Shown piece by piece: positions 1 to 14,041 of a DNA stretch of 64,000 bases. Each line of letters starts with the position of its first letter. Position 1 is the first letter of the stretch. A model generated the notes under the pieces. The model had not been told where the DNA came from. It saw only the letters and a program-made list of their open reading frames with translations, and did not search any database. The translations under genes and the position numbers were made by a program. Source of the stretch: Bacteroidota bacterium (GTDB taxonomy: Bacteria; Bacteroidota; Bacteroidia; Chitinophagales; Chitinophagaceae); NCBI GenBank assembly GCA_018267545.1, contig JAFDYG010000466.1:243918-307917 (forward strand), read 5' to 3'.

Positions 1-12
1 TGCGGAAGGCAT
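1..12 (-). CDS. Start of a downstream eCIS gene, probably PAAR-type tip protein (partial)
   Basis: An ATG on the minus strand lies one base after the stop codon of the VgrG-type gene (TGA-C-ATG), and the four visible codons read M-P-S-A. In injection-system operons a PAAR-domain spike-tip gene commonly follows the VgrG spike, and such proteins often begin with a short Met-Pro-Ala/Ser-Ala stretch. Only four codons are visible, so the assignment rests on position and is an inference; the gene continues beyond the left edge. Confidence 0.35.
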
Positions 13-13
13 G

Positions 14-1792
14 TCAATTTATTTTTACGATCGAGCCGCTGATTTCGGTGATGCCCTGGGCGGCTACTTTGGCCAGGGCTCCTTCTACGTCTACGTTGGC
101 GTCGGCCTTTATCGAAATCGAGGCGGCGCCGATGGATAAGGTGGCGCCAGCGGAGATGTCGAGGTTGGCGGCCGCCTTGATCTTGATATCGAGGGGGCTG
201 TCGACCGTGATGCCGCTGGTGTCCATGGTGATTTTGTTGCTATTCTGATCTTTGATCTCCACTTTGGTCCCCTGCTCGTCGAGCTGTATGCTGTTGCCTG
301 CAGGGGTATCTATCGTGATGGTTTTGGTTTGGTCGTTGAAATGTACGCGCATCTTGCTGCGTGTCGTGAATCCCTTTTCATTGTTTGCGTCCTGTGGAGT
401 TATGGGCGCTTGTTTGGCGCTGCTGTGCAACATGCCCAGGACTACGGCGTGACGGGGGTCGTCGTTGATAAATCCAACGATCACCTCGTCTCCAATCTCG
501 GGCATGAAGAAAGCGCCTCTGTCGCTGCCTGCGTCGAGGCTGGCGATGCGGGTCCATATACCTTGCGCGTTATTGTCGATGACGGGCACCTTTACCTGAA
601 TGCGAAACTCGCCGTCGGGGTCGTTCTCCAGCTTTACCACCACACCGATCTGCAGGCCATGGACGGCGCCGATGAGGCCTGCGGCTTGCGGGTCGTTGAC
701 GTTGGAGTAGACATCGGAGTACCGTTCGGGGTCGAGGCCGAACTGGATATGTGTATCCCAGGTACCGGCTGTTATGTCCTGGCGGACGGCGGTGACGTAT
801 ACGTTGCCGTTAAAGCGGTCGCCGATGCCGTCGAGCTTGGCCATGTCGCCGGGGTTGATGCCGGAGAAGCCGGTCACTCTGGCGCGGCCCCTGGTTTTGG
901 ACAGGCGGCTGCGTAGCATCAGGCCGTCGACCCAGCCTTGCAGCTCCTGCTCGAGGAGGTAGCCGCTGTGGTGCATCTGGTATTTTTCGGGGCTGACGGC
1001 TCCGGCGAGGTCGCTGCCCGAGAGATTTCCTGGTTGCTGAAAGCTGGAGGCTTCGGTGGTATCGGCGTTGAATAGCGTTTGGTTGGCGTGGTCCCAGGAA
1101 GTCGCTTCCACCTTCTTCCATTGGTCGCGGGCGTCCATCTCGGCTTCGAACTCGATGACGGAGAAGCCGTAGGTGACCTGCACTACGGGTTGGGTAGAAG
1201 TGTCGGGTGGGGCGATCCTGATCTTGCCGTCCTGTACGATCACGAGCATGCCGTTGGCTTCGGCGCGCATCAGCAGGAAGTCCCAGTCGGTGATGTGGTG
1301 CTGAACGAGCTGTTTGTGTGTGAGAGTCGTTGTCTTGAGGTCGCTGCTCAGCCCCGAATATCCTCCGATGACCTCATCGAAAATCTCGCTGTCCTTTTTA
1401 TTCTCGAAATAGCGGCTGTTGCGGCCGAGGGTCATTTTAACCGTTTCGTCGCGGCATTCTACGGTGAGCTGGGTATTACCGTTCTCCTTTACTTTTATCG
1501 ACTGGCGTGTGATCACTCCTTTGAAGGCCTGGCTGTTGGTGCCGTCGAAGCCCAGGCTGATGGTGATACTTTTGCCGGGGATAAAAGTATTGCTATTGCT
1601 GAGCTCGAAATTCCGTTGAGCGGCGTCTCCGTCCCTGACGACGATGCGGGCCACGGGGATTCGGTTCACCTCCTTCATGATGCTGATGTTCATGATCTGG
1701 TAGGTGGCGTCGATGGCCGTACCGTCTACTTCGATGGCGAAGGTGACGACGTCGTGTGTCGAGGGATTTGGAATCAAGAGTTCATCAGCCAT
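14..1792 (-). CDS. VgrG/Pvc8-type central spike protein of the contractile injection system
   Basis: The 592-aa product has the architecture of the trimeric spike under the tail tube: a phage late-control-D/gp27-like part (about residues 15-370), a gp5-type OB-fold (about 375-455, with the typical PEIGDEVIVGF and DDPRHAVVLGMLH signatures), and a C-terminal stretch of short alternating repeats (about 495-590) expected to form the beta-helix needle. It has no extra C-terminal effector domain, so cargo is probably loaded elsewhere. Its start overlaps the stop of the LysM gene by 8 bp, which suggests translational coupling. In eCIS particles this protein sits at the baseplate centre and carries the PAAR tip. 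Family assignment is firm; eCIS rather than T6SS follows from the sheath, LysM, DUF4255 and DUF5908 neighbours. Confidence 0.93.
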   Translation of the reverse strand: MADELLIPNPSTHDVVTFAIEVDGTAIDATYQIMNISIMKEVNRIPVARIVVRDGDAAQRNFELSNSNTFIPGKSITISLGFDGTNSQAFKGVITRQSIKVKENGNTQLTVECRDETVKMTLGRNSRYFENKKDSEIFDEVIGGYSGLSSDLKTTTLTHKQLVQHHITDWDFLLMRAEANGMLVIVQDGKIRIAPPDTSTQPVVQVTYGFSVIEFEAEMDARDQWKKVEATSWDHANQTLFNADTTEASSFQQPGNLSGSDLAGAVSPEKYQMHHSGYLLEQELQGWVDGLMLRSRLSKTRGRARVTGFSGINPGDMAKLDGIGDRFNGNVYVTAVRQDITAGTWDTHIQFGLDPERYSDVYSNVNDPQAAGLIGAVHGLQIGVVVKLENDPDGEFRIQVKVPVIDNNAQGIWTRIASLDAGSDRGAFFMPEIGDEVIVGFINDDPRHAVVLGMLHSSAKQAPITPQDANNEKGFTTRSKMRVHFNDQTKTITIDTPAGNSIQLDEQGTKVEIKDQNSNKITMDTSGITVDSPLDIKIKAAANLDISAGATLSIGAASISIKADANVDVEGALAKVAAQGITEISGSIVKIN

Positions 1793-2501
1793 TGCTCGAG
1801 AGCTTTATTAATGGTGGAAAGGATAACTGTACGCCAGGTTTTAACCTTCTTACCGTCGTCAGTCCGTTATAGGCTCCTACCTCGGATAGGAACCCGGGGT
1901 CGTTGTAGATGTTATACGTCATATTATCCAGGCGATCACCCTGGGTCACTTTCCGGTAGTGAGTGAGGTCCGGAGAAGTGAGCTTGGACTCGGCCAGGAT
2001 TTCCTCCCGCGACTTGTGGTGCAGGAAGGTGGCGTTGATCTTTACGCGAAGGGGGCTGCCATCGGGTTCGAAGAGAGTATAATTGATATCGACGTTGGCC
2101 AGGACGCAGCGAAACTTGACGTCCGAGCCCCACATGACGATCAGGAAATTGGGCCGGTGGATACCGCCGTCTACGTAATAGGCACAATCCAGGAAATCCT
2201 GGAGCTGTTTTGTCACGGGCTTGGTGATATAATCGCTGGTTTTGCCCGAATAGCCTTCCATAGTCCTGGTGCCGTCGAGGATGAACTCGAGGCGGAACTC
2301 TTCCGGTGCGGTGGAGCGGTAGCGGATCTCGGTGCCTTCGTTGCCATGTCCCTGTTGCTGGTCGACGCTCACTTTGAAATTCTTCGTGAAGGTCTCCGGG
2401 TTGATGGGGGCAACGAACTTGAGGTCTGTCCGTTCGTTTTGAAATTGCCGGTCGGTGAAGGATCGGATGATCAGCTTCTCCAGTTTTTTTCTATCGCCCA
2501 T
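1785..2501 (-). CDS. LysM-containing tube/baseplate protein (Pvc7/Afp7-like)
   Basis: The 238-aa protein matches the eCIS family that joins the inner tube to the spike. A beta-rich gp53/tube-like part covers about residues 1-175, including the hallmark start in which a segment rich in N-P-E-T-F leads into YRSTAPEEFRLEF, and a LysM-like module covers about 178-232 (HYRKVTQGDRLDNMTY, then a hydrophobic LSFPPL end). There is no signal peptide, as expected for a cytoplasmically assembled particle. The gene overlaps the DUF5908 gene upstream by 11 bp and the VgrG gene downstream by 8 bp, so the three are probably translated as a unit. In T4 terms the LysM protein corresponds to gp53. Confidence 0.9.
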   Translation of the reverse strand: MGDRKKLEKLIIRSFTDRQFQNERTDLKFVAPINPETFTKNFKVSVDQQQGHGNEGTEIRYRSTAPEEFRLEFILDGTRTMEGYSGKTSDYITKPVTKQLQDFLDCAYYVDGGIHRPNFLIVMWGSDVKFRCVLANVDINYTLFEPDGSPLRVKINATFLHHKSREEILAESKLTSPDLTHYRKVTQGDRLDNMTYNIYNDPGFLSEVGAYNGLTTVRRLKPGVQLSFPPLIKLSSNG

Positions 2502-2661
2502 GTTGTTCTTTTAAGATTTCCAGGATTTTGTCTACGCATATTTTCACCAGCTGCTCGGGGGACGTACTATCCCCCGAGCTGGCGTCCGGCTTGGAGTTTC
2601 CCGTTCTACCGTCTTCGGTGACCGTGGCTCTGATGACTAGTTCTCTAATCTCTACCGGCAT
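2491..2661 (-). CDS. Small DUF5908-family eCIS protein
   Basis: A 56-codon gene fills the gap between the second tube gene and the LysM gene. The N-terminus reads MPVEIRELVIRATV, the conserved opening of the DUF5908 family, followed by a polar, probably disordered middle (about residues 15-35) and a helical end (LVKICVDKILEILKEQ). DUF5908 proteins are known as small, uncharacterised members of Bacteroidota injection-system operons. The gene begins 3 bp after the tube gene's stop codon and its last 11 bases overlap the start of the LysM gene in another frame, which argues that it is translated. Role unknown; it may be a chaperone or small baseplate adaptor (inference). Confidence 0.87.
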   Translation of the reverse strand: MPVEIRELVIRATVTEDGRTGNSKPDASSGDSTSPEQLVKICVDKILEILKEQHGR

Positions 2662-2664
2662 ATA

Positions 2665-3126
2665 TTATCCTTTATCGGTAAAAAGAAGACGATTATAATT
2701 CAATTCCAGTGTCTCCAGGAGCACTTCACCGCGCTCGGCGTTTAGCTCGCCGATCTTCCAGCTCCGGGGCCATACGTTGTTGATGGTCCATTGGAGGAGG
2801 GGTTTGTGCTGTTCGTCCAGCAAATAAATGTGGACGGTGGAGAGGGGCTGGTATTTTTCTTCATCGAATGTCCGTTTCAGCCAGGTCGTCAGGCCGGAGG
2901 CGCCGGGGCCTAGCAGCCCTCGTTTGAGCACTAGCGGGCCGTACTTTCTCCGGGTGGGGATGACGTGTTCGAAACGGTTTTCGCCTCCTTCCCGGATGGT
3001 TTCGGTGTCGATCGTCGAATCCAGTCCTGTTACGGACTGGAAGCGGATATCGACGGCCTTTGCCGTATCCAGGGTGAAATTCACGCGGAAGTGGAAATTG
3101 ACATTCTGATAAAAACTATCGGCCAT
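2665..3126 (-). CDS. Phage-tail-tube-like protein 2 (tube initiator, Afp5/Pvc5-type)
   Basis: The 153-aa protein belongs to the T4 gp19-like tail tube superfamily. It has the paired signatures of the fold: FRVNF followed by FQSVTGLD near residues 13-37, then LVLKRGLL and a C-terminal LLDEQHKPLLQWTINNVWP segment shared with the neighbouring tube gene. It is a paralogue of the adjacent 154-aa protein with low overall identity. In eCIS operons a second, diverged tube protein usually forms the first ring on the spike, and its position next to LysM and VgrG fits that. The initiator role is inferred from order; the tube fold is well supported. Confidence 0.88.
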   Translation of the reverse strand: MADSFYQNVNFHFRVNFTLDTAKAVDIRFQSVTGLDSTIDTETIREGGENRFEHVIPTRRKYGPLVLKRGLLGPGASGLTTWLKRTFDEEKYQPLSTVHIYLLDEQHKPLLQWTINNVWPRSWKIGELNAERGEVLLETLELNYNRLLFTDKG

Positions 3127-3161
3127 GTGGTCGGCTTTTATGGTTTGGATGCAACGGCCTG

Positions 3162-3626
3162 TTAAGCGTTGGCTTCAACGATCTTGAGCCCTTCGTGGAC
3201 GAGGTCCATCGACTCTATGGCGACTTCGTTGGCGTCGGCTTTCAGGTTCGTGGACTGAACCTTGGAAGGCCAGGCTTTCGACAGCGCCCAGGTGATGATG
3301 GGTTTGTGCTCTTCGTCCAGGAGCTTGATCGTGATATCCCTTCTGAATTTTTCTGCGCCTTCCTGGAACATCATCGTCTTCTTCCAAAGCTCGAAATATT
3401 TGAAATCGCCGAGGAAAGTGCCGCGTTTGAGAGTGATGTTTGCGTATTTGGTGAGGCCGGGTTGCTTCGTCTTATGATAGACCGGGCTATTGCCTTCGCG
3501 GTATTCGATGACTTCTGTTTCGAAATCGAGGCCGCTGACCTCCGTAAAACCAAAGCGATCTTCGCCCCATTCGACTTGGAAGTGGAATTTCGGGAGGGGA
3601 TAATTCTTTTTAGGATCGTCTGCCAT
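3162..3626 (-). CDS. Phage-tail-tube-like protein 1 (main inner tube, Afp1/Pvc1-type)
   Basis: The 154-aa protein is a T4 gp19-like tube subunit: FHFQVEW, FTEVSGLD (about residues 14-34), ITLKRGTF, and LLDEEHKPIITWALSKAWP (about 105-123), the last motif being typical of eCIS tube proteins. It would stack as hexameric rings inside the sheath and form the conduit for cargo. Length and motif order match the abundant tube subunit. It lies 35 bp upstream of its diverged paralogue and 34 bp downstream of a Cys/His-rich helical protein, whose insertion between sheath and tube genes is less usual. Confidence 0.9.
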   Translation of the reverse strand: MADDPKKNYPLPKFHFQVEWGEDRFGFTEVSGLDFETEVIEYREGNSPVYHKTKQPGLTKYANITLKRGTFLGDFKYFELWKKTMMFQEGAEKFRRDITIKLLDEEHKPIITWALSKAWPSKVQSTNLKADANEVAIESMDLVHEGLKIVEANA

Positions 3627-3660
3627 ACATTAATTTTTAAAAGCGTGATTGGATTGATGT

Positions 3661-4665
3661 TTATTTTGTTGGAGCTGGCGTGGGAGCTGGGGCTGTCGGG
3701 GCCGCACACCGGGTAGCGGGGTCGACGGCTTTGATGACTGCGTCCAGCCCGTCTTTCCATGCCTTGTATTTGTCCCGTTGTTTAGTGACTTCGAGGAGCC
3801 TGGTGTTCAGCTCGTCTACGACTTGATTGTCCTCTTCGAAGATCGTGGAGATCTCCTCGTAGTAATCGCTGTCGCAGATGGGGAACTCGAGCATGGGTTC
3901 GAGGCCGATGTCTTCGATCTGTCCTTCGCCCTGGTGAACGTGGTGGTGATGGGGGCGACCGGGTTTTTGGATATTGCCTCCGTAGCAGTGTTCGTCGCAG
4001 TGGAAGGCGTTCTTCCATTCGTGCAGGACGGTATGGAGACCGAAGTGGTGACCCAGGTTTTTGTCGAGGCGATTAGCCAGGTCGACTGCGGCGATAAAGG
4101 CGTCGAACAGGCCGTCGCGGGTTGCGATGACGGCGTCGAGCTTCTTGCCATAGTCGGTGATCAGGGTGCGTACGCTTGCCGTGGGGGGCAGGCCGGGATT
4201 GTTGATACACTGGACGCAGTTGACGAGGACGTCGTACTTCCTTTTCAGGTGGTCCAGCTGCATATAGAAATCCCGGATCATGCAATAAAGAATCCTTATG
4301 GACTTCACCGTCAGCTCGGAATTCTTTTCGATCCGGTACAGGTGGTGGAGAAGGATCTCCAGCTGGTGGCAGACTTTGCGTGCGGCGTCGTCCACTTTAG
4401 TCAGCTCGTCGTACCAGGTCTTCCAGAAGTCGCGCTGGGTTTTCATGTAATTGAGGTGGTTGGTAATGGCGGTCACCTCTTTGTCGGCTGCGTTGAGCTG
4501 GGCGGTCACTTCGTTGTACTCTTCCATCCAGCCGTCGAAGCAGCAATCCCCGGAGCCGGTGGGAGGATCCTCGGGTTTGCCCCCGGGTTTCTTCCTCTCG
4601 CAGCACTCCTTCACCTTAGGATCCCAGTCAGCTATTTCGCAATTTTTATAGTTAAGTATGAGCAT
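3661..4665 (-). CDS. Cys/His-rich helical protein of the injection-system operon, unknown function
   Basis: I do not recognise the family of this 334-aa protein. The first 30 residues carry paired cysteines (KECCERK, then GDCC), followed by long helical segments rich in E, K, D and W (about residues 45-215, including DFWKTWYDEL). Near residue 238 is a histidine cluster (RPHHHHVHQ) next to two CxxxC-like cysteines (HCDEHC). A further helical stretch and an A/P/T-rich tail end the protein. There is no signal peptide or membrane segment. It sits inside the operon between the structural genes with 30-35 bp gaps, so co-expression with sheath and tube is likely. The Cys/His content suggests metal binding (inference). 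It resembles the neighbouring 343-aa protein in layout. Confidence 0.75.
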   Translation of the reverse strand: MLILNYKNCEIADWDPKVKECCERKKPGGKPEDPPTGSGDCCFDGWMEEYNEVTAQLNAADKEVTAITNHLNYMKTQRDFWKTWYDELTKVDDAARKVCHQLEILLHHLYRIEKNSELTVKSIRILYCMIRDFYMQLDHLKRKYDVLVNCVQCINNPGLPPTASVRTLITDYGKKLDAVIATRDGLFDAFIAAVDLANRLDKNLGHHFGLHTVLHEWKNAFHCDEHCYGGNIQKPGRPHHHHVHQGEGQIEDIGLEPMLEFPICDSDYYEEISTIFEEDNQVVDELNTRLLEVTKQRDKYKAWKDGLDAVIKAVDPATRCAAPTAPAPTPAPTK

Positions 4666-4695
4666 GGTCTTTTGTTTTGTTGGTGAGTCAAAAGT

Positions 4696-5727
4696 TTAGG
4701 CGTTCGATGGTTGCTGTGCGGGCGACTTGCCGACCAGGTCCGAGAAAGTGTCCCGGACTTCGCCGCAGATGTCACAGATTTCGCACAGACACTTGTCCAG
4801 CCTTGGTTCGCAGTGACCTTTGCCGATCTCTACGCAGCCGCATTTCGGACAGCAGATCTCGGATACCGTCTTGTACACGCCGTCGTAGTCACAGCGTTGG
4901 TTGTACAAATCGATAATCGAGTCGGTGCGGTCTGCGAGGGATTGTACCAGGTCCTTTTGGGTGTTATCGAGGTCCGTCTTGCGCGTCTTGATCGTGGTGG
5001 TGAGGATGTTGTCGAAATCGACGGCGCGAGTGGACAGCTCGGTTTGGAGGGGGACGAGGCTGCCGATGTTTCCGAACTTCTGGACGCCGATGACGTCGGA
5101 AGAGGCCTTGAAGATGGAGTCGATGTCGAAGGCGAGACCGGCCTTGGGCATGCAAACCATGAGCTTGAGGATTTCTTCTGCGTCCTTGCAGCCTTCGGGG
5201 GGATTGGGGGACTGGTTGTCGTCCTTGCAGCTATCTGGATTTTTTCCGGTGATGATACACCACTGGGACGTGCTGCAGCTGTCGTTGAGGGAATTCTCCA
5301 GCTTCACCGCGGCATCGCGAAGGTCGGCGACTTTGGCTTTTACATCTTTAACGGTATTGAAGATGTTTTTAAGGGCGGTCGCGAGGTTGTCGTCCCAGGT
5401 CTTGTAGCTGGCGACGTTGATCGTGATACGCTTATTTGCCTGCATCAGCTGGGAGCCCATGCTGATCTCCGTGTTGACGTACCGCTGGAGATTGTCTTGG
5501 GTGCGAAGGAACTTTCGTTCTTTCTTTTTGTACAGGGTCTCTTTACCGTCATAGGCGATCTCGAGCTTTTTGACGTTATCGCGGGAGGTCATCAGATTGG
5601 TACAATACACCTTCTTGACCGTGTTGATCTTTTTCTGCGTGGCGTTGTCCCTTTCTTCACAGTCGGGGATGTCGCTGGGCTGGTGCTGGTTCCGGTCGTT
5701 CCTTTGATTTTGGTATGACGTAGCCAT
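4696..5727 (-). CDS. Cys-rich coiled-coil protein of the injection-system operon, unknown function
   Basis: This 343-aa protein is unrecognised. A polar, Gln/Asn-rich start leads into long predicted helices (about residues 25-150 and 195-280, heptad-like K/E/L patterns), interrupted by a Cys-containing loop (about 150-185). The C-terminal 60 residues form a dense cysteine cluster (EICCPKCGC, then CLCEICDICGE) that looks like one or two treble-clef or zinc-ribbon knuckles. It lies 22 bp downstream of the sheath gene. Like its neighbour it combines a helical body with cysteine clusters and W-D/Y-D motifs, so the two may be distant paralogues. Possible roles are sheath-tube assembly, a cap adaptor, or a cargo/plug component; none can be shown from sequence. 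Confidence 0.75.
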   Translation of the reverse strand: MATSYQNQRNDRNQHQPSDIPDCEERDNATQKKINTVKKVYCTNLMTSRDNVKKLEIAYDGKETLYKKKERKFLRTQDNLQRYVNTEISMGSQLMQANKRITINVASYKTWDDNLATALKNIFNTVKDVKAKVADLRDAAVKLENSLNDSCSTSQWCIITGKNPDSCKDDNQSPNPPEGCKDAEEILKLMVCMPKAGLAFDIDSIFKASSDVIGVQKFGNIGSLVPLQTELSTRAVDFDNILTTTIKTRKTDLDNTQKDLVQSLADRTDSIIDLYNQRCDYDGVYKTVSEICCPKCGCVEIGKGHCEPRLDKCLCEICDICGEVRDTFSDLVGKSPAQQPSNA

Positions 5728-5749
5728 AATGAGTTTTTTTTAGCGTGCT

Positions 5750-7192
5750 TTAATTTTCGGCCAGCATTTTATGCATGAACTGCAGGATGATGAACTCTGC
5801 GGGGCGGACGGCTGCCAGGCCGATCTGTATAATCATGCGTCCTTCCCAGATATCGAGCTCGGTCATAGTTTGTCCCAGGCCGATATGTACGAAGAAGGCT
5901 TCCTTGGTGGAGGCTCCCATGAGGGCTCCGGCCTTCCATTGCTGGGTGAGGAAATTCTCGATCATGGCTTTTATGCGGGTCCATGTGTTCTCGTCGTTGG
6001 GTTCGAAAACAAATTGGTCGGCGGCGTTCTTGACAGAAGTCTCTACCATGATAAAGAAGCGGCGGACGGAGATGTAGCGCCATTCGTTGTCGTTGCCGGC
6101 GAGAGTGCGGGCGCCCCAGATGAAGGCGGGGCCGCGGCCGGGGAAGCTGCGGATAACGTTGATGGACTTACCTGCGTTTGCGTCGACGTTGAGCGTCTTC
6201 TGCTGGTCGTTGGTAATAGAAACCTCGGGTTTGATGGCCGAGATGATACTTACGTTGGCGGGGGCCTTCCATACGCCGCGGCTGCTGTCGACGGCGGCGT
6301 AGACGCCTACGGCAGCGGCGGAGACGGGGAGCAGGATAGTGTAATCGGCGATTGCCCGTTGTGCCATGGTATAGGCGCTGTTCGACTTAGTCTTTGCGTC
6401 GGCCATATTACCGTCGAAGATCGTTGCGCCTGTTGTGTCCTTAACCGTCAGCTTTACGTCGGCGTCGGCGTATACGAAATCGAGATCGACGTAGATGCGG
6501 GGGTAGTAGACGGCGGCGTATTTTAAATTAGCCGGGTCCTGAACGAGATTGGCGTTGCGGAGGTCGCCTACGTTATCGTGGGGCGGGTTGCCTGCGGCGA
6601 CGGCGGTGTCGTCGATCCATACGTCCAGAACGGTGAACCGGTCTTTTAGATTGGCGCACTGTTGAATGGCGAGATTATGGAGGCCATAGTAATTATCTTT
6701 TGTCAGGCTCATGGCGTCGGGGAAGACGATGAGAGTGACGTCGAATAGTTTTTCGATTTCGGTCAAGCCTGCTTCAAGCTTGGCCCGGTCGGGTGTTCCT
6801 CCAGCGGCGGGGTAGGTGTCTACGGACACGATGTAGCAATCGCCGCCGCCGTTCTTGAAGAACATCTGCAGGGCGTAATACATCATAAACGTGGGCATGT
6901 TCTTCGTCTTTTTGACCGTGGTGGGGCTGCTCTTCGACAGATCGATGGAGACGACGATGTCCGTTTCGTGAGGAGCGGGAGCTGCGAGATTCGGCGTACA
7001 GAAAAACTGTTCGTATTCGAAGATCGAGGAGATCTTGACCGGTTTTTTGACGGTGGAGCCCGGTTCGGTTTCGTCGGGGGCTGTTTCGGTGTAACCGATG
7101 AATGCGGGGATTGCTGTCTCGACGGACGCGATGGAAGGCGGGAGCTTGGGGATTTCTTCTATATACACTCCCGGCGTTTTGTAATCTGCCAT
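5750..7192 (-). CDS. Phage tail sheath family protein (contractile sheath)
   Basis: The 480-aa product starts with the sheath signature YKTPGVYIEE followed by AIPAFIGYTE (about residues 4-38) and ends with the conserved C-terminal handshake region, including VEPSV-like strands and a final LDIWEGRMIIQIGLAAVRPAEF segment (about 446-468). The protein forms the contractile outer tube of the particle. Its length is typical for a full-size eCIS sheath (Afp2-4 / Pvc2-4). Only one sheath gene is visible here, whereas Afp and PVC have three and many Bacteroidota clusters have one or two. The gene is transcribed with the cap gene upstream and the tube genes downstream. Confidence 0.94.
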   Translation of the reverse strand: MADYKTPGVYIEEIPKLPPSIASVETAIPAFIGYTETAPDETEPGSTVKKPVKISSIFEYEQFFCTPNLAAPAPHETDIVVSIDLSKSSPTTVKKTKNMPTFMMYYALQMFFKNGGGDCYIVSVDTYPAAGGTPDRAKLEAGLTEIEKLFDVTLIVFPDAMSLTKDNYYGLHNLAIQQCANLKDRFTVLDVWIDDTAVAAGNPPHDNVGDLRNANLVQDPANLKYAAVYYPRIYVDLDFVYADADVKLTVKDTTGATIFDGNMADAKTKSNSAYTMAQRAIADYTILLPVSAAAVGVYAAVDSSRGVWKAPANVSIISAIKPEVSITNDQQKTLNVDANAGKSINVIRSFPGRGPAFIWGARTLAGNDNEWRYISVRRFFIMVETSVKNAADQFVFEPNDENTWTRIKAMIENFLTQQWKAGALMGASTKEAFFVHIGLGQTMTELDIWEGRMIIQIGLAAVRPAEFIILQFMHKMLAEN

Positions 7193-7266
7193 AGTTTTAG
7201 TCTTTTTTTTGTGTGAAAATTTTTAACTGATTTTTTAAAAAAGTGTGTGTGGTGGGGGGATGGGTT

Positions 7267-8562
7267 TCATGGGCCGAGGGGGAAGATGTCGGACTCCGGG
7301 ACGATGATATCTGCGAAGATCTGCTGTCCTTCGGGCTTGACGGGATAAAAGAGTTTTGGATTGGGCAGCTTTGTGCCTTGCACCGGGATGGGTGCGTAGG
7401 TTTGGGGCTGCGGTATGGCCGAAACGAGATTGTTCCCGGTTAGCTTTAGCGTACCGCCGTGGCTGTCTTTTAAAAGCTTTCCCTGGTCGTTTATATAGCG
7501 CCAGAAGGCGTAGCGGCTTTTTATAAAGACCTCGAAAACCGGCGGGGCGATAGCGACGCTGTTATCGGTGTTGAGCCGGGTAAGGAGGAGGCCTTTGCTG
7601 TCGATGCAATTGAAGGCGGGGTCGCCGGGCTGGCTATAGATATTGATCATTCCCCAGGCCTCTTCTGTTTCTGCGGTTGCCTGGAGGAAGAAGAGCTTAT
7701 AATTTTTGTTGTATCCGCCGTCGCCGGTGACGGAGAGGATATAGAGGGCGGCGGTTTCGGTGACGGAGGAGGGAAGTGTTTTTAGCTTTGACTCGTCGAA
7801 GCGGAGCTGAACGTTTTGCAAGGGGCTATCGCTTTTGACGGTATTGGTAAAGATCGTATTGTTATCCTTGTCTTTGAGGGTAAAGCTGGCGTTTTTGACG
7901 TTATCGGCAGGAGTGAAGTAATACTGAAAAGAGGGATAGACGAGGATGCGGTCCGCTTCGGTCAGGAAGCTTTTCCCGATGACGGGTGCGAAATGAGGAT
8001 TGCCGCTGCTATCGACATAAAAGGCGTTGACGATGCCACCGGACTGGGAGAGCTCGCCCTGTTCGTAAGCCGTTCCGGCGATTTGGGTCGGGACGGTGTT
8101 GGTGAGGAAGGGGAAGATTTTGGGCCCCGTGGTATTGTCGTTGGATATATAATAAATGGCGTTGAAGGCGGGTTTAAAGCGCCGGTTGGTATAACTATCG
8201 AAATCGGCGTTGGTACGAACCAGGAGGATGGGGACGTTGAGACCGGTGGGCAGGGGGGCTACTGGTTTGAAGGCGATCTTGCCACCGTCGGAAGTTCTGA
8301 GGACTTCCGTGGCTATTTTAAAGCCCGAGTAGGTGGGGACGAGCTTCAGTCTGTAATTTTTATACAGGGTAGCGGCGCTTGCGGGAATCCGGTAGTCGAT
8401 GTCGCTGTTGATGCTACGTTGTGTGCGATCGAAGAAGTCCTGGAGGAAGGCGTCTCTTGCTGCGGCGTTTGCGGCGCCGAAGATGGAAGTTCCGTCGGAT
8501 TTTGTAAGGTAGAACTCGTGAAGGAGCCGTACCTCGAATAATATCTTATAGATCGTTGTCAT
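7267..8562 (-). CDS. eCIS-operon protein of unknown function, 431 aa
   Basis: This gene overlaps the DUF4255 gene by 4 bp (ATGA) and precedes the sheath gene by 74 bp, so it belongs to the operon. The protein has no signal peptide or membrane segment. It opens with an aromatic-rich segment (YKILFEVRLLHEFYL), then is beta-rich throughout, with about 200 residues that read like two immunoglobulin-like or sheath-decorating domains. I recall similar second-position genes in Bacteroidota injection-system clusters but cannot name a family. Possible roles are a particle surface or cap-associated protein. The function is unknown. Confidence 0.72.
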   Translation of the reverse strand: MTTIYKILFEVRLLHEFYLTKSDGTSIFGAANAAARDAFLQDFFDRTQRSINSDIDYRIPASAATLYKNYRLKLVPTYSGFKIATEVLRTSDGGKIAFKPVAPLPTGLNVPILLVRTNADFDSYTNRRFKPAFNAIYYISNDNTTGPKIFPFLTNTVPTQIAGTAYEQGELSQSGGIVNAFYVDSSGNPHFAPVIGKSFLTEADRILVYPSFQYYFTPADNVKNASFTLKDKDNNTIFTNTVKSDSPLQNVQLRFDESKLKTLPSSVTETAALYILSVTGDGGYNKNYKLFFLQATAETEEAWGMINIYSQPGDPAFNCIDSKGLLLTRLNTDNSVAIAPPVFEVFIKSRYAFWRYINDQGKLLKDSHGGTLKLTGNNLVSAIPQPQTYAPIPVQGTKLPNPKLFYPVKPEGQQIFADIIVPESDIFPLGP

Positions 8563-9182
8563 CCGCGATTTTTCGTTGAGTTGGAAAGATTGGCGTTTAC
8601 TTCTTCGATCAGCGGCACGTCGCGGAGGCGTTTACGTCCGGAGATGGCCACCAGCCGGAGCTTGTACATGACGGAAGGCATTTGTTTGCCGCCGAGGACG
8701 CCCCAGAGGTGGTTGATCTGTTCGAAAGTGAGTGTATATAATTCGGGTTTTATCTTGAAGTCGGTGATGTCGTCGAACTGGCTGCTGAGCCTGGAGGGGT
8801 CGTAGGCGGTGAAGGAATTTTTTCCCTGAAAGAACCGGATAACGTGGGAAAGTCTGGCCAGGGAGTCGATATATTCGGAATCGCCGGAGATGGACTTGCT
8901 GCTGCAGGAAATGAGCAGGTAGAGGTTGAGATAGACGGGAGGATTTTCATAGCGGGCGTTTCCGGCACCGTCTTTTTTGAGGGCGGGAGTATTTTTCAGC
9001 GTGCTTTCTTCTTCTATGTTGACGATAGTGAAGACGATACTATTATCGATATTGGTCGTATTATTACTATCCAATAAGGCGATATTCTCGATGACCACCA
9101 TCGTTTCCGGATGAGCATAGCCGTTAACTCTGAGATATTCCACGAATTCATCCCGAAGCAGCTCAATTGTTGTGTCGATCAT
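8559..9182 (-). CDS. DUF4255 / Pvc16-N domain protein (tail terminator/cap)
   Basis: From the internal ATG chosen here the protein is 207 aa and begins MIDTTIELLRDEFVEYL, the usual start for this family; an upstream in-frame ATG at 9269 would add 29 residues lacking family features. The domain covers residues 1-180, with VFTIVNIEEE, YLNLYLLISC and FEQINHLWGVLGGK as recognisable segments. Pvc16/Afp16 forms the terminator ring that ends tube and sheath polymerisation. It is the first gene of the visible operon. The only sequence upstream for nearly 600 bp is non-coding, so the operon promoter should lie there. Confidence 0.9.
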   Translation of the reverse strand: MIDTTIELLRDEFVEYLRVNGYAHPETMVVIENIALLDSNNTTNIDNSIVFTIVNIEEESTLKNTPALKKDGAGNARYENPPVYLNLYLLISCSSKSISGDSEYIDSLARLSHVIRFFQGKNSFTAYDPSRLSSQFDDITDFKIKPELYTLTFEQINHLWGVLGGKQMPSVMYKLRLVAISGRKRLRDVPLIEEVNANLSNSTKNRG

Positions 9183-9767: not shown

Positions 9768-10418
9768 ATGACCGGCAAAATGAGATGTGTCTTAACTATT
9801 CTACTATTAGGACTTTGTTTATTCGGGTATAGCCAGGACGACTGGAAATTGAAGACGGATAAGGAGGGTATTTCCATTTATACGCGGACGCCTTCGGATT
9901 CCAAGTTCAAGGCGATTCGGGTAGTTTGCGATCTGGATGCTACCCTTTCTCAAATGGTAGCGGTGATTCTGGACGTGAATACGGGCGCCGAGTGGGTCTA
10001 TAGTACGAAGTCTTCTGTTTTGGTGAAACAGGTTTCCCCTTCTGAGGTTGTATATTATTCTGAAGTAAGTATTCCCTGGCCGGCGAGCAACCGGGATTTT
10101 ATTGCCCGGTTAAAGGCGGTGCAGGACACGCATACGCGAGTGGTGACAATCTATGGTCCGACGGAGCCGGGTTTTTTGCCGGTGAAGAAGGATATCGTGC
10201 GGGTTCAAAAGTCGGAGGGTAAGTGGGTGATTTATCCGTTGGGGAAGGATAGGATAAGGGTCGATTATACGTTGAAGGCGGATCCGGGGGGAGATCTTCC
10301 TGCGTGGCTCGTGAATATGTTTGTTACGAAGGGGCCTTATGAATCGTTCAAGAAATTGAAGTTACAGTTGAAGAAGCCGGCTTATGCTCATCCGAATTTG
10401 GCGTTTATTACGGATTGA
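9768..10418 (+). CDS. START-domain (lipid-binding) exported protein
   Basis: The 216-aa protein has a signal peptide (LTILLLGLCLFGYSQ, cleavage near residue 23) and a START/Bet v1-like domain over the remainder: WKLKTDKEGISIYTR, the conserved WxxASNRDF-type core (WPASNRDFIARL near residue 108) and a DYTLKADPGGDLPAWLVNMF motif near the end. START domains bind hydrophobic ligands in a deep pocket, and exported bacterial members of this length are common in Bacteroidota but have no assigned ligand. Its 3' end overlaps the convergent membrane-protein gene by 11 bp. An alternative start at the second Met (9780) would also keep the signal peptide. Confidence 0.88.
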   Translation: MTGKMRCVLTILLLGLCLFGYSQDDWKLKTDKEGISIYTRTPSDSKFKAIRVVCDLDATLSQMVAVILDVNTGAEWVYSTKSSVLVKQVSPSEVVYYSEVSIPWPASNRDFIARLKAVQDTHTRVVTIYGPTEPGFLPVKKDIVRVQKSEGKWVIYPLGKDRIRVDYTLKADPGGDLPAWLVNMFVTKGPYESFKKLKLQLKKPAYAHPNLAFITD

Positions 10419-10959
10419 GAGGGGGGGTGTCTTCGGTTGGGGAAGCTTGAAAAATCCTGCTAAGTAATTGTTGGGTCGATCTGACCTGTTCCTGTAATCC
10501 GGCGTTGGGAATGATAAAGGCGATGACGGCGATGGTCAATGAAGCGGTTATCATTTTCCGGGTGTTTTCGGGTGGATGGTCGAAATTGACGATGATTGAA
10601 ACGAGGGACCAGGCCAGGATGATCAGGCTTATGCACCATGCGGCGGCTGCTTTTAAAGTTCTTCCGGTCCCGGGTCTGATCTGAATCTGAATGAGTGTTT
10701 GTTCTCCCGACGGGATAAAGGTTCCGAATACTTCACGGGGGGATTTTTGCCAATTTTTATTGACTGAAAAAGAAGAATAATCAAATCTGCCATAGTAAAG
10801 CTTGCTTTTGCTGCTCCAGGGCATCGTTGTTTGAAAACTGCCGGACGTGTCCACTTCTTCCTCAAACCTTTGCCGTAGCTGTTCCATGGGGAGGCTGGTA
10901 ACGAGGGTGAATTCTTTTATGGGAAAGAGGCGTTGCAGCAAGGTCATGGGGATGATCAA
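10408..10959 (-). CDS. Small two-helix membrane protein, unknown function
   Basis: The 183-aa protein has a soluble N-terminal part (residues 1-100, predicted beta/alpha, with a [10 protein letters not shown] stretch) and two hydrophobic helices (about 105-127 and 138-155) near the C-terminus, ending in a Pro-rich tail. I do not recognise a family. It overlaps the end of the hybrid histidine kinase gene by 4 bp and so is translationally coupled to it. It may therefore serve in the same signalling pathway, but that is an inference from position. Confidence 0.65.
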
Positions 10960-12692
10960 TTGAGCCCTAAATGTAATAAAATGTTGCGGTGCATCTCGTC
11001 GGGTCTGAAGGGTTTGTGGAGGAAGCCGTTGAAGCCGTGCTTTTGGAGGTCGTCGTACATGTTTTCGTAGACGGCTGCGGTAAAGGCGATGGCGGGGACG
11101 TGCTTGTTGACGGTGCGGATCTGGGTGATGAGCTCCTTGCCGTCCATGAGGGGCATTTCGAGGTCGACGAGGAGGAGGTCGAACGACTGCTGCTGGAAGA
11201 TCTCCCAGGCGACCAGGCCGTTTTCTGCGGTATCGATGCTGGCGCCCCAGCTGTGGAGGAAGCGGCGGGCGATTTTCATATTGACGGTATTGTCTTCGAC
11301 CAGGAGGATCTTGACGCCGTTGAGCTTCTTTAGTCCACGGAGCTGCTCGGTGGGAAGGATGATATTGCGTTGCTCGAAGGAGAGCAGGAGCGTGAAATAG
11401 AAAGTACTTCCCTTGTCGGGGGTGCTGTTGACTTTGAGCTGTCCGCCCATCTTTTTGACCAGCTCTTTACAGATGCTTAGACCCAGACCGGAGCCGCCGT
11501 ATTTGCGGGTTGTTTCGGCGTCGGCCTGTGTGAAGCTGTCGAAGATGATGGGCATCTTTTCGGGTGGTATCCCGATGCCTGTGTCGGCGACGGCGAAATA
11601 GATTTCTGCTCCTGCTTCTGTCAGGTGGTTGACGTGGGCGGTTAGGGTGACCGAGCCGATCTCGGTAAACTTAACGGCGTTGGACAGAAGGTTGAGAATA
11701 ATTTGTTTGAGCCGCATCTCGTCACCGATTACCTTTTTATCGCCAGGAAGAGTGGAAATTTCCAGAAACAGCTGGATATTCTTTTGATGTATCGTAGTCG
11801 TGACGGCGTCGGCGGCTTGATGCAGGGTTTGGCTGAGGTCGAAGGGTTCGCTGACGAACTCGAGCTTGCCTTCGTCGAGCTTGTTGAAGTCGAGGACTTC
11901 ATTGACGAGGTGGAGCATGTGTTCGGAAGAATCCTTCAAGATCTTGAAATTATCGCTTTCGTGCAGGTGGTCGAAGTCCTGGATTAGCAGGTGTGTAGTG
12001 CCGATGATGGCATTGAGCGGTGTTCGCAGCTCGTGGCTCATGTTGCTCATGAAGCGGGTTTTGGCTGCGGCTGCTTTTTCGGCTTTTTCCTTGGCTTGCA
12101 GGATTTCGAACTCGGCCTGCTGGAGGGAGGCGATGTGTTTCTTGTTTTTTTTCTCCTTTGCGTCGAGGAGGTTGAGAACCACATAGAAGAAGACGATGAC
12201 CAATAAGAAATTGATGGTGATATTCAGCTTCAGGTGATTGCTGTCGACGGCCTCGCTTACTGGTTCCAGGCGGGTATGATAGGGAAGGAACAGTACGATG
12301 GCGAGGAGGTTGAGTGCGGTGGCGATGATAAAGACGGTAACGACCAGGTCGTTTTTGCGGACCCGGAGGAAGAAGATCATGGCCATGACGAAGGGAAACA
12401 GGTATAGGTATGCGCCCTGATGAGTGCCTTGAACATAGCAGAGAGAAAAGGCGTGGAGGTTGACGAAGAAAATGCTGAGCAGGGTGGGGACGCCGAAGAG
12501 GCCCTTTAGGTTCAGCAGGACGAAGATGAAGAGGACGACGATGCCGCAGATTTCGATCGTGGCGCTATTGTCCATTCCGTCAATGACATAATACAGGAAA
12601 TTGATGAAGTTACAGCCCATGGCGAGCACAATGAAGGTATTGAGCTGCCAGAACCTGGCTTTTGTACTGGGTGATGTAACCTGGTTATTCAA
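10956..12692 (-). CDS. Membrane-bound hybrid sensor histidine kinase with receiver domain
   Basis: The 578-aa protein has about six N-terminal membrane helices (residues 17-175), a short coiled coil (180-210), a HisKA domain with phospho-acceptor His220 ([10 protein letters not shown]), a HATPase domain (N box NAVKF near 340; G1 [10 protein letters not shown] near 371; G2 GGSGLGLSI near 399) and a receiver domain with Asp510 (LLLVDLEMP), Thr538 (AFTA) and Lys560 (HKPF). There is no periplasmic sensor domain, so the stimulus is probably sensed within the membrane. With the receiver fused and no separate regulator or DNA-binding domain nearby, its output partner must be encoded elsewhere. The 183-aa membrane protein follows with a 4-bp overlap. 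Confidence 0.93.
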
Positions 12693-12827
12693 CTTAGATA
12701 AGTGGATTGAGTCACTTTAAAATTAAACTAAATGTTTAGCGCCCACAAGGTTTATTTTATTGTGCGGGGCTCTGATTTACTTGAAAATATGTCCTTTGTA
12801 AGGGTTTTCTTTTATTCAGGAATTCTT

Positions 12828-13406
12828 TTATTGTTTGGAGACGGGTAGATAGAATTCGCCGTTGGAGAGGACTTTTTTGTCGGAGCTGGTAGGTAGGGAG
12901 CCGACTTGCGAATACCAGAAATCTCCGCCGAAAGTTCCTTTTACGGTAGAGGTGCTGATATCGCTGATTACTATTTTCAATGGATTGCCGGTGCTGGCAT
13001 GAAGGCCGGCAGAGTAGATGATGGAGGTGCTTCCGGGGTTGTATACGCCGGCTACCAGGAAGTTCGGGCTGCCGTCTTCGGAGTAGGTGCCGGGGACGAT
13101 GGCGTTACCGGAGGTCGAGCCGCCGATGGTGATGTTGATACCTTCGAGGCTGGTTGTTGCGGCGTTGGCGACCATGGCGAGGTTCGTTGCGCCGGAGTTG
13201 GTGGTCACGATGGCCATGGCGTTTGTCTTGAACGTTTTGGTTGCGCCGTCCATGGAGAATTTTATGTAGTAGCCGGTGGTTGTTCCTCCGTTGTTGTTGC
13301 CGCCGTTGTTGTTATTGTTGTTGTTACCGGTACCTGTTTCGGTCGATGTATTTTTACTGCAGGAGAATAGGAATAAAGTCAGCAGGAGAACGCAAAACTT
13401 TTGCAT
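12828..13406 (-). CDS. Asn/Gly-linker lipoprotein, unknown function
   Basis: The 192-aa protein begins with a lipoprotein signal (LTLFLFSCSKN, lipid-accepting Cys near residue 16). A low-complexity Asn/Gly/Thr linker follows (about residues 22-45), then a beta-rich domain starting YYIKFSMDGATKTFK. The linker is encoded by repeated AAC/AAT codons and looks prone to length variation. Small lipoproteins of this design, with a sugar-like N/G tether between lipid and a beta-sandwich, are frequent in Chitinophagaceae and usually surface exposed. Function unknown. It is divergent from the downstream membrane-protein gene, whose promoter overlaps its start. Confidence 0.8.
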   Translation of the reverse strand: MQKFCVLLLTLFLFSCSKNTSTETGTGNNNNNNNGGNNNGGTTTGYYIKFSMDGATKTFKTNAMAIVTTNSGATNLAMVANAATTSLEGINITIGGSTSGNAIVPGTYSEDGSPNFLVAGVYNPGSTSIIYSAGLHASTGNPLKIVISDISTSTVKGTFGGDFWYSQVGSLPTSSDKKVLSNGEFYLPVSKQ

Positions 13407-13433
13407 ATAGGTTCGGGGATTGTATTAGGTTTG
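13400..13433 (+). promoter_or_regulatory. Promoter for the PQ-loop-like membrane protein gene
   Basis: TTTG (13400-13403), a 22-bp spacer and a perfect TAGGTTTG (13426-13433) match the Bacteroidota -33/-7 consensus. The start codon at 13463 follows 29 bp later. The -33 element lies inside the first codons of the divergent lipoprotein gene, so the two may interfere in transcription. Confidence 0.55.
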
Positions 13434-13462
13434 CTGGCAAGATAGATAAAATATTGTATATA

Positions 13463-14041
13463 ATGGTAACAGGTAGTTTGGAGCGGGTGATTGGGATTAT
13501 AGCCGGTATCATGATTGGGAGCGCACAGATTTTTTACCTGGGAAATACGCTTCGCCGAAAGATTACGCCGAGTATACTATCGTGGCTGGGCTGGGCTTTT
13601 TTGATGGGAACGAGTGTGGTTTCGCAGGTGGTGAGCAAGGGTTGGCAGTGGAGTCTGACCTCGATTTTATGTTCGACGGCGGGCTGTGTAATCATTGTGC
13701 TGGGGGCTGTGTTTGTGCGGAATTTTTCGTTGCTGGCCCGCGACTGGATTTTTTTGATTCTTGGATTGGGTTGTTTAGGCTTGTACTATCTATCGAAGGA
13801 TGCGTGGGTGACGACGATCTTTGCGATATTGGCGGACGGGGTGCTTGGGATACCTACGATTGTGAAGGCTTGGAAGGAGCCGGCTTCGGAGCGATCGGTA
13901 GCGTGGATATTGGGAGCGGGGTCATCGGTGCTGGCGTTAAGCATTTGTTTTGGGCATGATATGCTGTATGCTTTGTTTCCGATTTATTTGGTTTTGTTTA
14001 ACGGGGGCATGGCCTGGTTGACCTGGGTTAGGAAAGTTTAG
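13463..14041 (+). CDS. Integral membrane protein, PQ-loop/SemiSWEET-like duplication
   Basis: The start is placed at 13463 (MVTGSLERVIG); the frame is open 74 codons further upstream but that part is antisense to the lipoprotein gene. The 192-aa product has about six to seven membrane helices. Two segments resemble each other: AQIFYLGNTLRRKITPSILSW (near residue 20) and LGIPTIVKAWKEPASERSVAW (near 138), each a helix, a charged loop with Pro-Ser/Thr-Glu and a Trp-led helix, as in PQ-loop proteins. That family includes small sugar or amino-acid transporters. The relationship is my pattern reading and needs a profile search. Confidence 0.65.
   Translation: MVTGSLERVIGIIAGIMIGSAQIFYLGNTLRRKITPSILSWLGWAFLMGTSVVSQVVSKGWQWSLTSILCSTAGCVIIVLGAVFVRNFSLLARDWIFLILGLGCLGLYYLSKDAWVTTIFAILADGVLGIPTIVKAWKEPASERSVAWILGAGSSVLALSICFGHDMLYALFPIYLVLFNGGMAWLTWVRKV

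Follow-up and report, generated by a model that had tools for sequence, protein, structure and literature searches.

Y1 and Y2, two conserved cysteine-rich protein families encoded between the sheath and tube genes of a Bacteroidota extracellular contractile injection system

The window analysed here is a 64,000-nucleotide stretch of a Chitinophagaceae genome (Bacteroidota; assembly GCA_018267545.1, here G000), positions 243918-307917 of contig JAFDYG010000466.1 (C406:243918-307917). The list of open reading frames and the Pfam matches reveal a minus-strand operon that spans window positions 9182 to 14 and contains ten genes in the order cap, cap adaptor, sheath, Y1, Y2, tube, second tube-like protein, DUF5908, CIS_tube protein and VgrG. 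The genes for the sheath (480 residues, 5750..7192, minus strand; Phage_sheath_1C, E 3e-12) and inner tube protein 1 (3162..3626, minus strand; Phage_T4_gp19, E 2e-43) have intact reading frames. Between them lie the minus-strand genes for two predicted helical proteins, Y1 (343 residues with 17 Cys, 4696..5727) and Y2 (334 residues with 13 Cys and 16 His, 3661..4665). The contig reaches 243.9 kb further to the left of the window, and the operon runs on for 18.4 kb there. The locus is almost certainly an extracellular contractile injection system (eCIS). Genes for sheath, tube, VgrG, PAAR, gp25 and Baseplate_J lie in one cluster; the eCIS-specific Pvc16 cap, CIS tape measure, Afp12-like protein and AAA ATPase are all present, and so is a DUF4157 (eCIS_core) cargo (E 3e-31). 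The initial annotation, which placed half of a Bacteroidota eCIS in this window, is borne out by the Pfam matches from cap to VgrG and by the complete left half, and every gene that it named is an open minus-strand frame where it was said to lie. As an eCIS, the locus is ordinary. Its novelty lies in the conserved Y1/Y2 pair.

Library searches identify Y1 and Y2 as two new families without a library name. For the window Y1, Pfam yields nothing at E ≤ 0.1 and NCBIfam nothing over the cut-off, and the Pfam and NCBIfam matches of the window Y2 are all below the curated cut-offs. When 16 members of each family are scanned, scattered single-member Pfam matches at E ≤ 0.1 are obtained, to 31 families each for Y1 and Y2, with best E values of 4e-4 and 7e-4; among the 25 of 31 families listed, none is matched by more than two of the 16 members. 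The distribution of the pair was examined in 77 genomes, which are the 73 with a tape measure match among 392 phylum-sampled genomes, and G191, G184, G168 and G196, added for their cap-adaptor matches. Single-protein searches detect Y1 in four and Y2 in four of the 77. An eight-row Y1 profile, run against 396 genomes of the order, detects the family in 16 (10 of 164 genera); the six further genomes listed in that search from the same genus as the window are without a match. A 16-row Y1 profile matches five of 296 phylum-sample genomes, strongly in G000 and G068. The weak matches in G244, G405 and G458 (E 2e-5 to 9e-4), which cover short stretches of longer frames, are taken as chance coiled coils. 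These genome-wide profile counts are for Y1; Y2 is assigned in the remoter loci by position and alignment.

The pair lies between the two main trunk genes, and the Bacteroidota lineage in which it is found has a named Pontibacter strain among its members. The order sheath-Y1-Y2-tube is kept in all 18 loci examined, which are those of the 16 profile-positive genomes and the nearest loci of named genomes, in the metagenome-assembled genome SZAS-43 (L010) and in Pontibacter pamirensis TRT317 (L011), two of eight pattern-matching stretches. The sheath and tube of most of these loci were named by eye from translations. As a homology-free check, the distance from each sheath to the next tube was measured, with some tube rows left out. 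A downstream tube is present for 92 of the 96 sheath rows (73 genomes), and it lies within 300 bases in 73 of the 92. In the other 19 rows the tube is 1.5-2.3 kb away; by eye, a second sheath lies between in 13 of them. The six gapped rows without a second sheath are those of G000, G191, G168, G184, G196 and G068. Because four of these are the added genomes, the gap is rare among phylum-sampled eCISs, being found in G000 and G068. Among the measurable sheath rows of Bacteroidota outside the order, in which the gut Bacteroidetes injection systems (BIS) were not identified as such, no row has a gap of the size of Y1/Y2 without a second sheath. G168 has another sheath-tube locus (G168:C3:2189-3467) without the Y1/Y2 gap, in which 116 bases separate the two matches. 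No Y1/Y2-like pair is recognised in the available texts, mostly open-access and without supplements (PMC8894135, PMC8894136, PMC8213781, PMC12923769, PMC12210884, PMC11297309, PMC12998442, PMC13314943 and PMC10811340 among them).

Cysteine accounts for 4.1% of the residues of Y1 and 4.4% of those of Y2 (16 rows each), and for 0.08-0.85% in the neighbouring tube, cap adaptor, sheath and CIS_tube proteins (eight rows each). The cysteine content is 0.17% in VgrG, 0.82% in Cis11 and 2.0% in Cis12. Since 25 of the 38 cysteines of Cis12 lie within residues 1201-1867, Y1 and Y2 share their cysteine richness with the far end of this baseplate protein. Cysteine columns are common to up to 13 of the 16 Y1 rows (C151, C321) and 12 of the 16 Y2 rows (C128, C153, C320). 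Y1 and Y2 had been described as Cys/His-rich, which holds for cysteine in both, but for histidine only in Y2. Even there the excess is confined to the window (16 His) and SZAS-43 (15 His), the other six Y2 rows having 1-8 and the eight Y1 rows 0-3. Y1 carries a signature approximating G-I-Q-x-F-x-N-x-x-S-L, a looser form of which is present in 13 of 16 rows. Both Y1 and Y2 are under purifying selection. Against SZAS-43, the ratio of nonsynonymous to synonymous substitution rates (dN/dS) is 0.055 for Y1, 0.104 for Y2, 0.140 for the sheath and 0.196 for the cap adaptor, at dS values of 1.1-2.0, which are near saturation.

Structure models, made from three sequences each (window, SZAS-43 and P. 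pamirensis), are mainly helical at low confidence, with very long predicted helices at residues 65-150 and 224-291 of Y1 and 39-112 of Y2. The top Foldseek ranks of the Y2 model are mainly coiled coils and helical bundles. Profile searches of the PDB yield no match at E ≤ 0.001, the best E being 0.015 for Y2 and 0.38 for Y1. Comparison of the Y1 profile with the Y2 profile gives a probability of 1.8% with eight rows each, and of 13% (E 0.0022 over 184 columns) with 16 rows each, which is at most suggestive of the two proteins being paralogues. The idea that Y1 and Y2 make up for additional outer domains seen in long sheaths was also considered and dropped, because many eCISs have short sheaths, as judged from open-frame lengths, and no Y1/Y2 gap.

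The cargo and fibre genes were compared in six whole clusters (G000, G191, G184, G196, G168 and G068). Each of them encodes at least one eCIS_core protein, and the cargo varies between them. An FF-rich leader is present in both cargo candidates of G000 and in six DUF4157 cargos of five other genomes, although its elements are not all found in every row. It is not seen at the N termini of Y1 and Y2. A fibre-like gene, which lies between cis11 and cis12 and encodes an S74 (endosialidase chaperone) domain, is recognised in two of the six clusters, those of G168 (L033:18179-19870, E 7e-6) and G068 (L035:17797-19530, E 1.5e-4). The products of these genes are likely tail fibres. No fibre gene is recognised in the clusters of G000, G191, G184 and G196; a 288-residue gene product of G191 and a 213-residue one of G196 give no significant Pfam match.

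Y1 and Y2 may be components of the trunk, or may help to assemble it and then remain with the particle, at a probability of about 0.5. This role fits better than a target-specific or cargo-specific one, because the pair is constant beside the sheath and tube, while the cargo and fibre genes vary. By analogy with AlgoCIS and tCIS, the particle would be assembled in the cytoplasm, and the ATPase would load cargo that bears the FF-rich leader; as described for AlgoCIS, the particle would then be released and fire on contact. Y1 and Y2 would be produced alongside the trunk proteins. They would form either a heteromeric helical accessory that decorates, encircles or braces the trunk of sheath and tube, and perhaps reaches the cysteine-rich end of Cis12 at the baseplate, or a factor required for building the particle. 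The large number of cysteines suggests extracellular disulfide bridges. It is a guess that disulfides would fix the accessory once the particle is outside the cell and perhaps also bridge it to Cis12. Disulfides with a role in firing are described for Alg11 of AlgoCIS (PMC13314943) and for the tail of phage Milano (PMC10811340), in the available parts of these papers. A more specific version is doubtful. In it, the pair is an undescribed module, a coiled-coil heteromer cross-linked by disulfides, which surrounds the trunk as a layer or collar, locks the loaded, released particle and is undone at firing. eCISs are under development as particles for protein delivery. If the trunk role is true, a new component of this kind would alter the picture of how they are built and triggered.

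Several observations weigh against a trunk role. Cysteine richness is neither unique to the pair, since Cis12 has it too, nor universal within it, since Y1 of G582 has one cysteine. Beyond the close relative, identity is 17-42% for Y1 and Y2, compared with 48-60% for the sheath and 61-74% for the tube of the same eight loci. Such divergence is rapid for a part of the trunk, although the cap adaptor, at 23-34%, drifts like Y1 and Y2. The models are weak, with mean pLDDT values of 41.1 for Y1 and 57.9 for Y2, and none of the 492 Foldseek matches of the Y2 model at E ≤ 10 reaches E ≤ 0.001. tCIS works without a Y1/Y2-like pair between its sheath and tube, and the available text of PMC8894135 mentions no such pair in AlgoCIS. 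Y1 and Y2 are known here as genes, and their presence in a particle is conjectural.

Alternatively, Y1 and Y2 would be dedicated cytoplasmic assembly chaperones that are absent from the finished particle. Phage tails use chaperones, and the two genes lie directly between sheath and tube, encode predicted helical proteins and drift fast in sequence. However, other systems manage without Y1 and Y2, as is indicated by tCIS, whose sheath and tube genes are direct neighbours, and by the 73 of 92 sheath rows with a tube within 300 bases. In addition, a cysteine content of about 4% is judged to be unusual for cytoplasmic chaperones. This explanation is doubtful but not far-fetched. It is unlikely that Y1 and Y2 are instead a cargo pair loaded in the tube lumen. 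Helical rods of approximately 38 kDa could fit a lumen of 3.6 nm, the value given for AlgoCIS in the accessible part of PMC8894135, and the pair is not part of the core of other eCISs. Nevertheless, it is present in every lineage locus examined (18 of 18), whereas the recognised cargo differs; it has no FF-rich leader, whereas both cargo candidates of G000 and the six DUF4157 cargos do; and it sits among trunk genes, whereas eCIS toxins are often encoded at the 3' end, according to the part of PMC8213781 that was available.

A further possibility is that Y1 and Y2 bind the target in place of tail fibres. In G000 the stretch from gp25 through the ATPase is packed and has no leftover fibre gene, none is recognised in G191, G184 and G196, and the gut Bacteroidetes systems, which also lack the Cis13 and Alg19 fibres, use a different protein (PMC12210884, as far as its text was available). 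This possibility is weakened by G168 and G068, which have Y1 and Y2 plus the S74 gene, and it is distinctly unlikely. It is very improbable that the particle carries Y1 and Y2 as a two-component helical pore-forming pair. Y1 and Y2 are adjacent, predicted helical proteins of similar size, and ClyA structures turn up, without significance, in the Foldseek search of the Y2 model (E 0.10 and 0.11) and in the chance-level profile matches of Y1 (E 6.5 and 8). However, these ClyA matches are at chance level and mixed among many other long coiled coils, and only one of 16 sequences (eight Y1, eight Y2) contains a segment of sufficient hydrophobicity to insert into a membrane, the 19-residue hydropathy being 2.35 in Y2 of G068 and 0.44-1.36 in the others. 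No protein of the pair combines a significant match to a two-component alpha-pore-forming toxin with a hydrophobic segment, the fold search having been made with the weak Y2 model alone.

The pair of Y1 and Y2 is a real lead among the unrecognised genes that had been singled out as a target, but the remaining one, the minus-strand gene at 7267..8562, is recognisable by profile. Its 431-residue product alone gives no significant match. In contrast, a profile of eight orthologues matches All3326 (7b5i) over the whole length with an E value of 1.4e-25, and the AlgoCIS cap adaptor (7adz) with an E value of 4.7e-25, which identifies the protein as a cap adaptor of the tCIS/AlgoCIS type (Alg16B / All3326-like). 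Relatives are detected in 15 of the 77 genomes. In AlgoCIS, lack of the cap adaptor leads to aberrant particles with empty lumens (PMC8894135, in its available part).

The other window genes are all on the minus strand. The Pvc16/Alg16A-like cap protein (8559..9182; Pvc16_N, E 2e-30) is encoded by a frame that is open to 9269, and its start was set at the internal ATG at 9182 after the starts of orthologues. The second tube-like protein (2665..3126; Phage_T4_gp19, E 9e-37) is, by its position, probably a Cis5/Alg5-like tube initiator. The DUF5908 protein (2491..2661; E 7e-17) is, by size and position, probably the counterpart of the AlgoCIS plug Alg6, which is described in the available part of PMC8894135. 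The gene at 1785..2501, annotated as LysM, is real and encodes a CIS_tube protein (Alg7/Cis7-like, E 2e-46), although Pfam does not report the LysM domain itself. The VgrG-like central spike (Cis8, 592 residues, 14..1792) matches Phage_base_V (E 7e-23) and Phage_GPD (E 6e-15). The suspected PAAR start is confirmed: window positions 1..12 contain an ATG at 10-12, and the remainder of the gene lies to the left. The reading frames that flank the cluster look chromosomal by eye; no search was aimed at phage head genes or the membrane-complex genes of type VI secretion systems. Beside the eCIS, at window positions 9768-14041, are genes for a START-domain-like protein, a hybrid histidine kinase, a lipoprotein and a membrane protein. 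The flanking genes on the cap side have the same order by eye in SZAS-43 (L010 773-4797), and the locus therefore seems to lie at the same chromosomal place there.

The ATPase, baseplate and cargo genes, expected outside the window, are not missing from the assembly, but lie immediately to its left in the same contig (L002, C406:224000-243950). PAAR (96 residues, L002:19640-19930, minus strand; PAAR_motif, E 5e-23) is followed by gp25 (L002:19196-19621). Further genes of L002 encode Cis11 (1456 residues; All3317, E 2e-147), whose Baseplate_J match of 21.0 bits is just below the Pfam cut-off of 21.1, and Cis12 (1868 residues), which matches All3315 and also Alg12. These are accompanied by the tape measure (L002:7620-9338, probably from 9248 by domain start; CIS_TMP, E 8e-98), a 925-residue cargo candidate with an FF-rich leader (L002:4811-7588), a 196-residue DUF4241 protein (L002:4210-4800, E 3e-34), the DUF4157 cargo (L002:2849-4351, probable start 4198) and the AAA ATPase (L002:1515-2852; AAA, E 3e-28). 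A leftward extension, proposed as a check in the initial annotation, thus recovers gp25, Baseplate_J, tape measure, DUF4157 cargo and AAA ATPase within 18.4 kb; their absence within about 20 kb, or a broken sheath or tube frame, would have spoken against an eCIS. The neighbours from PAAR to the ATPase overlap or are separated by no more than 31 bases, which leaves no space for extra genes. The first listed gene left of the cluster is on the opposite strand, and the whole genome contains one Pvc16_N and one CIS_TMP match. The C-terminal stretch of the 925-residue protein matches a GH-E nuclease below the threshold (E 0.018, 16.1 of 25 bits). It is possible that this protein and its DUF4241 neighbour are a toxin and immunity pair; if so, bacterial targets would be indicated.

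Among solved structures, the structural core is closest in sequence to tCIS of Anabaena PCC 7120 (all3313-all3327), and then to AlgoCIS of Algoriphagus machipongonensis. The best PDB match of the sheath is All3325 (462 bits, E 1e-137), followed by the AlgoCIS sheath (424 bits, 5e-126); Cis11 scores 496 bits with All3317 and 341 with AlgoCIS, and Cis12 406 bits with All3315 and 318 with AlgoCIS. The likeness to tCIS extends to the cap adaptor, which All3326 matches over its full length. However, the tCIS tube gene all3324 is numbered directly beside the sheath gene all3325, which indicates that Y1 and Y2 do not lie between them, whereas here the tube gene does not adjoin the sheath gene but is separated from it by approximately 2.1 kb that contains Y1 and Y2. 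A Cis13 with a membrane helix and a Cis19 crown are tCIS features of its own; no gene is left over for them in the tightly packed stretch, although the Cis13 and Cis19 sequences were not themselves searched. AlgoCIS shares the cap and cap adaptor, a single sheath, a DUF4157 cargo, similar Cis11 and Cis12 and the plug Alg6, but its sheath has 692 residues as compared with 480 here, and its cap adaptor 284 as compared with 431. AFP and PVC share the general eCIS plan, and their Pvc3/Afp3 sheath, Pvc11/Afp11 and Pvc12/Afp12 are matched, but they have several sheath proteins, and the matches are weaker than those to tCIS and AlgoCIS. BIS and T6SSiv are likewise systems of Bacteroidota.

Additional features are observed in the related clusters. 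A clear DNase domain of the WHH / colicin type (E 5.5e-14 and 7e-10) forms the end of the DUF4157 cargo of G068 (L036:11749-15051). A ParA-like ATPase, which may place particles in the cell, is encoded near the end of the cluster in G168 (L034:16702-17544; AAA_31, E 5e-54) and G196 (L038:5482-6300, E 4e-55), and also, by eye, in G191 (L030:13521-14345). A DUF6851 / vanadium-chloroperoxidase-like gene lies among the cargo genes of G184 (L032:7660-9069, E 2e-29) and G196 (L038:6255-7673, E 7e-23).

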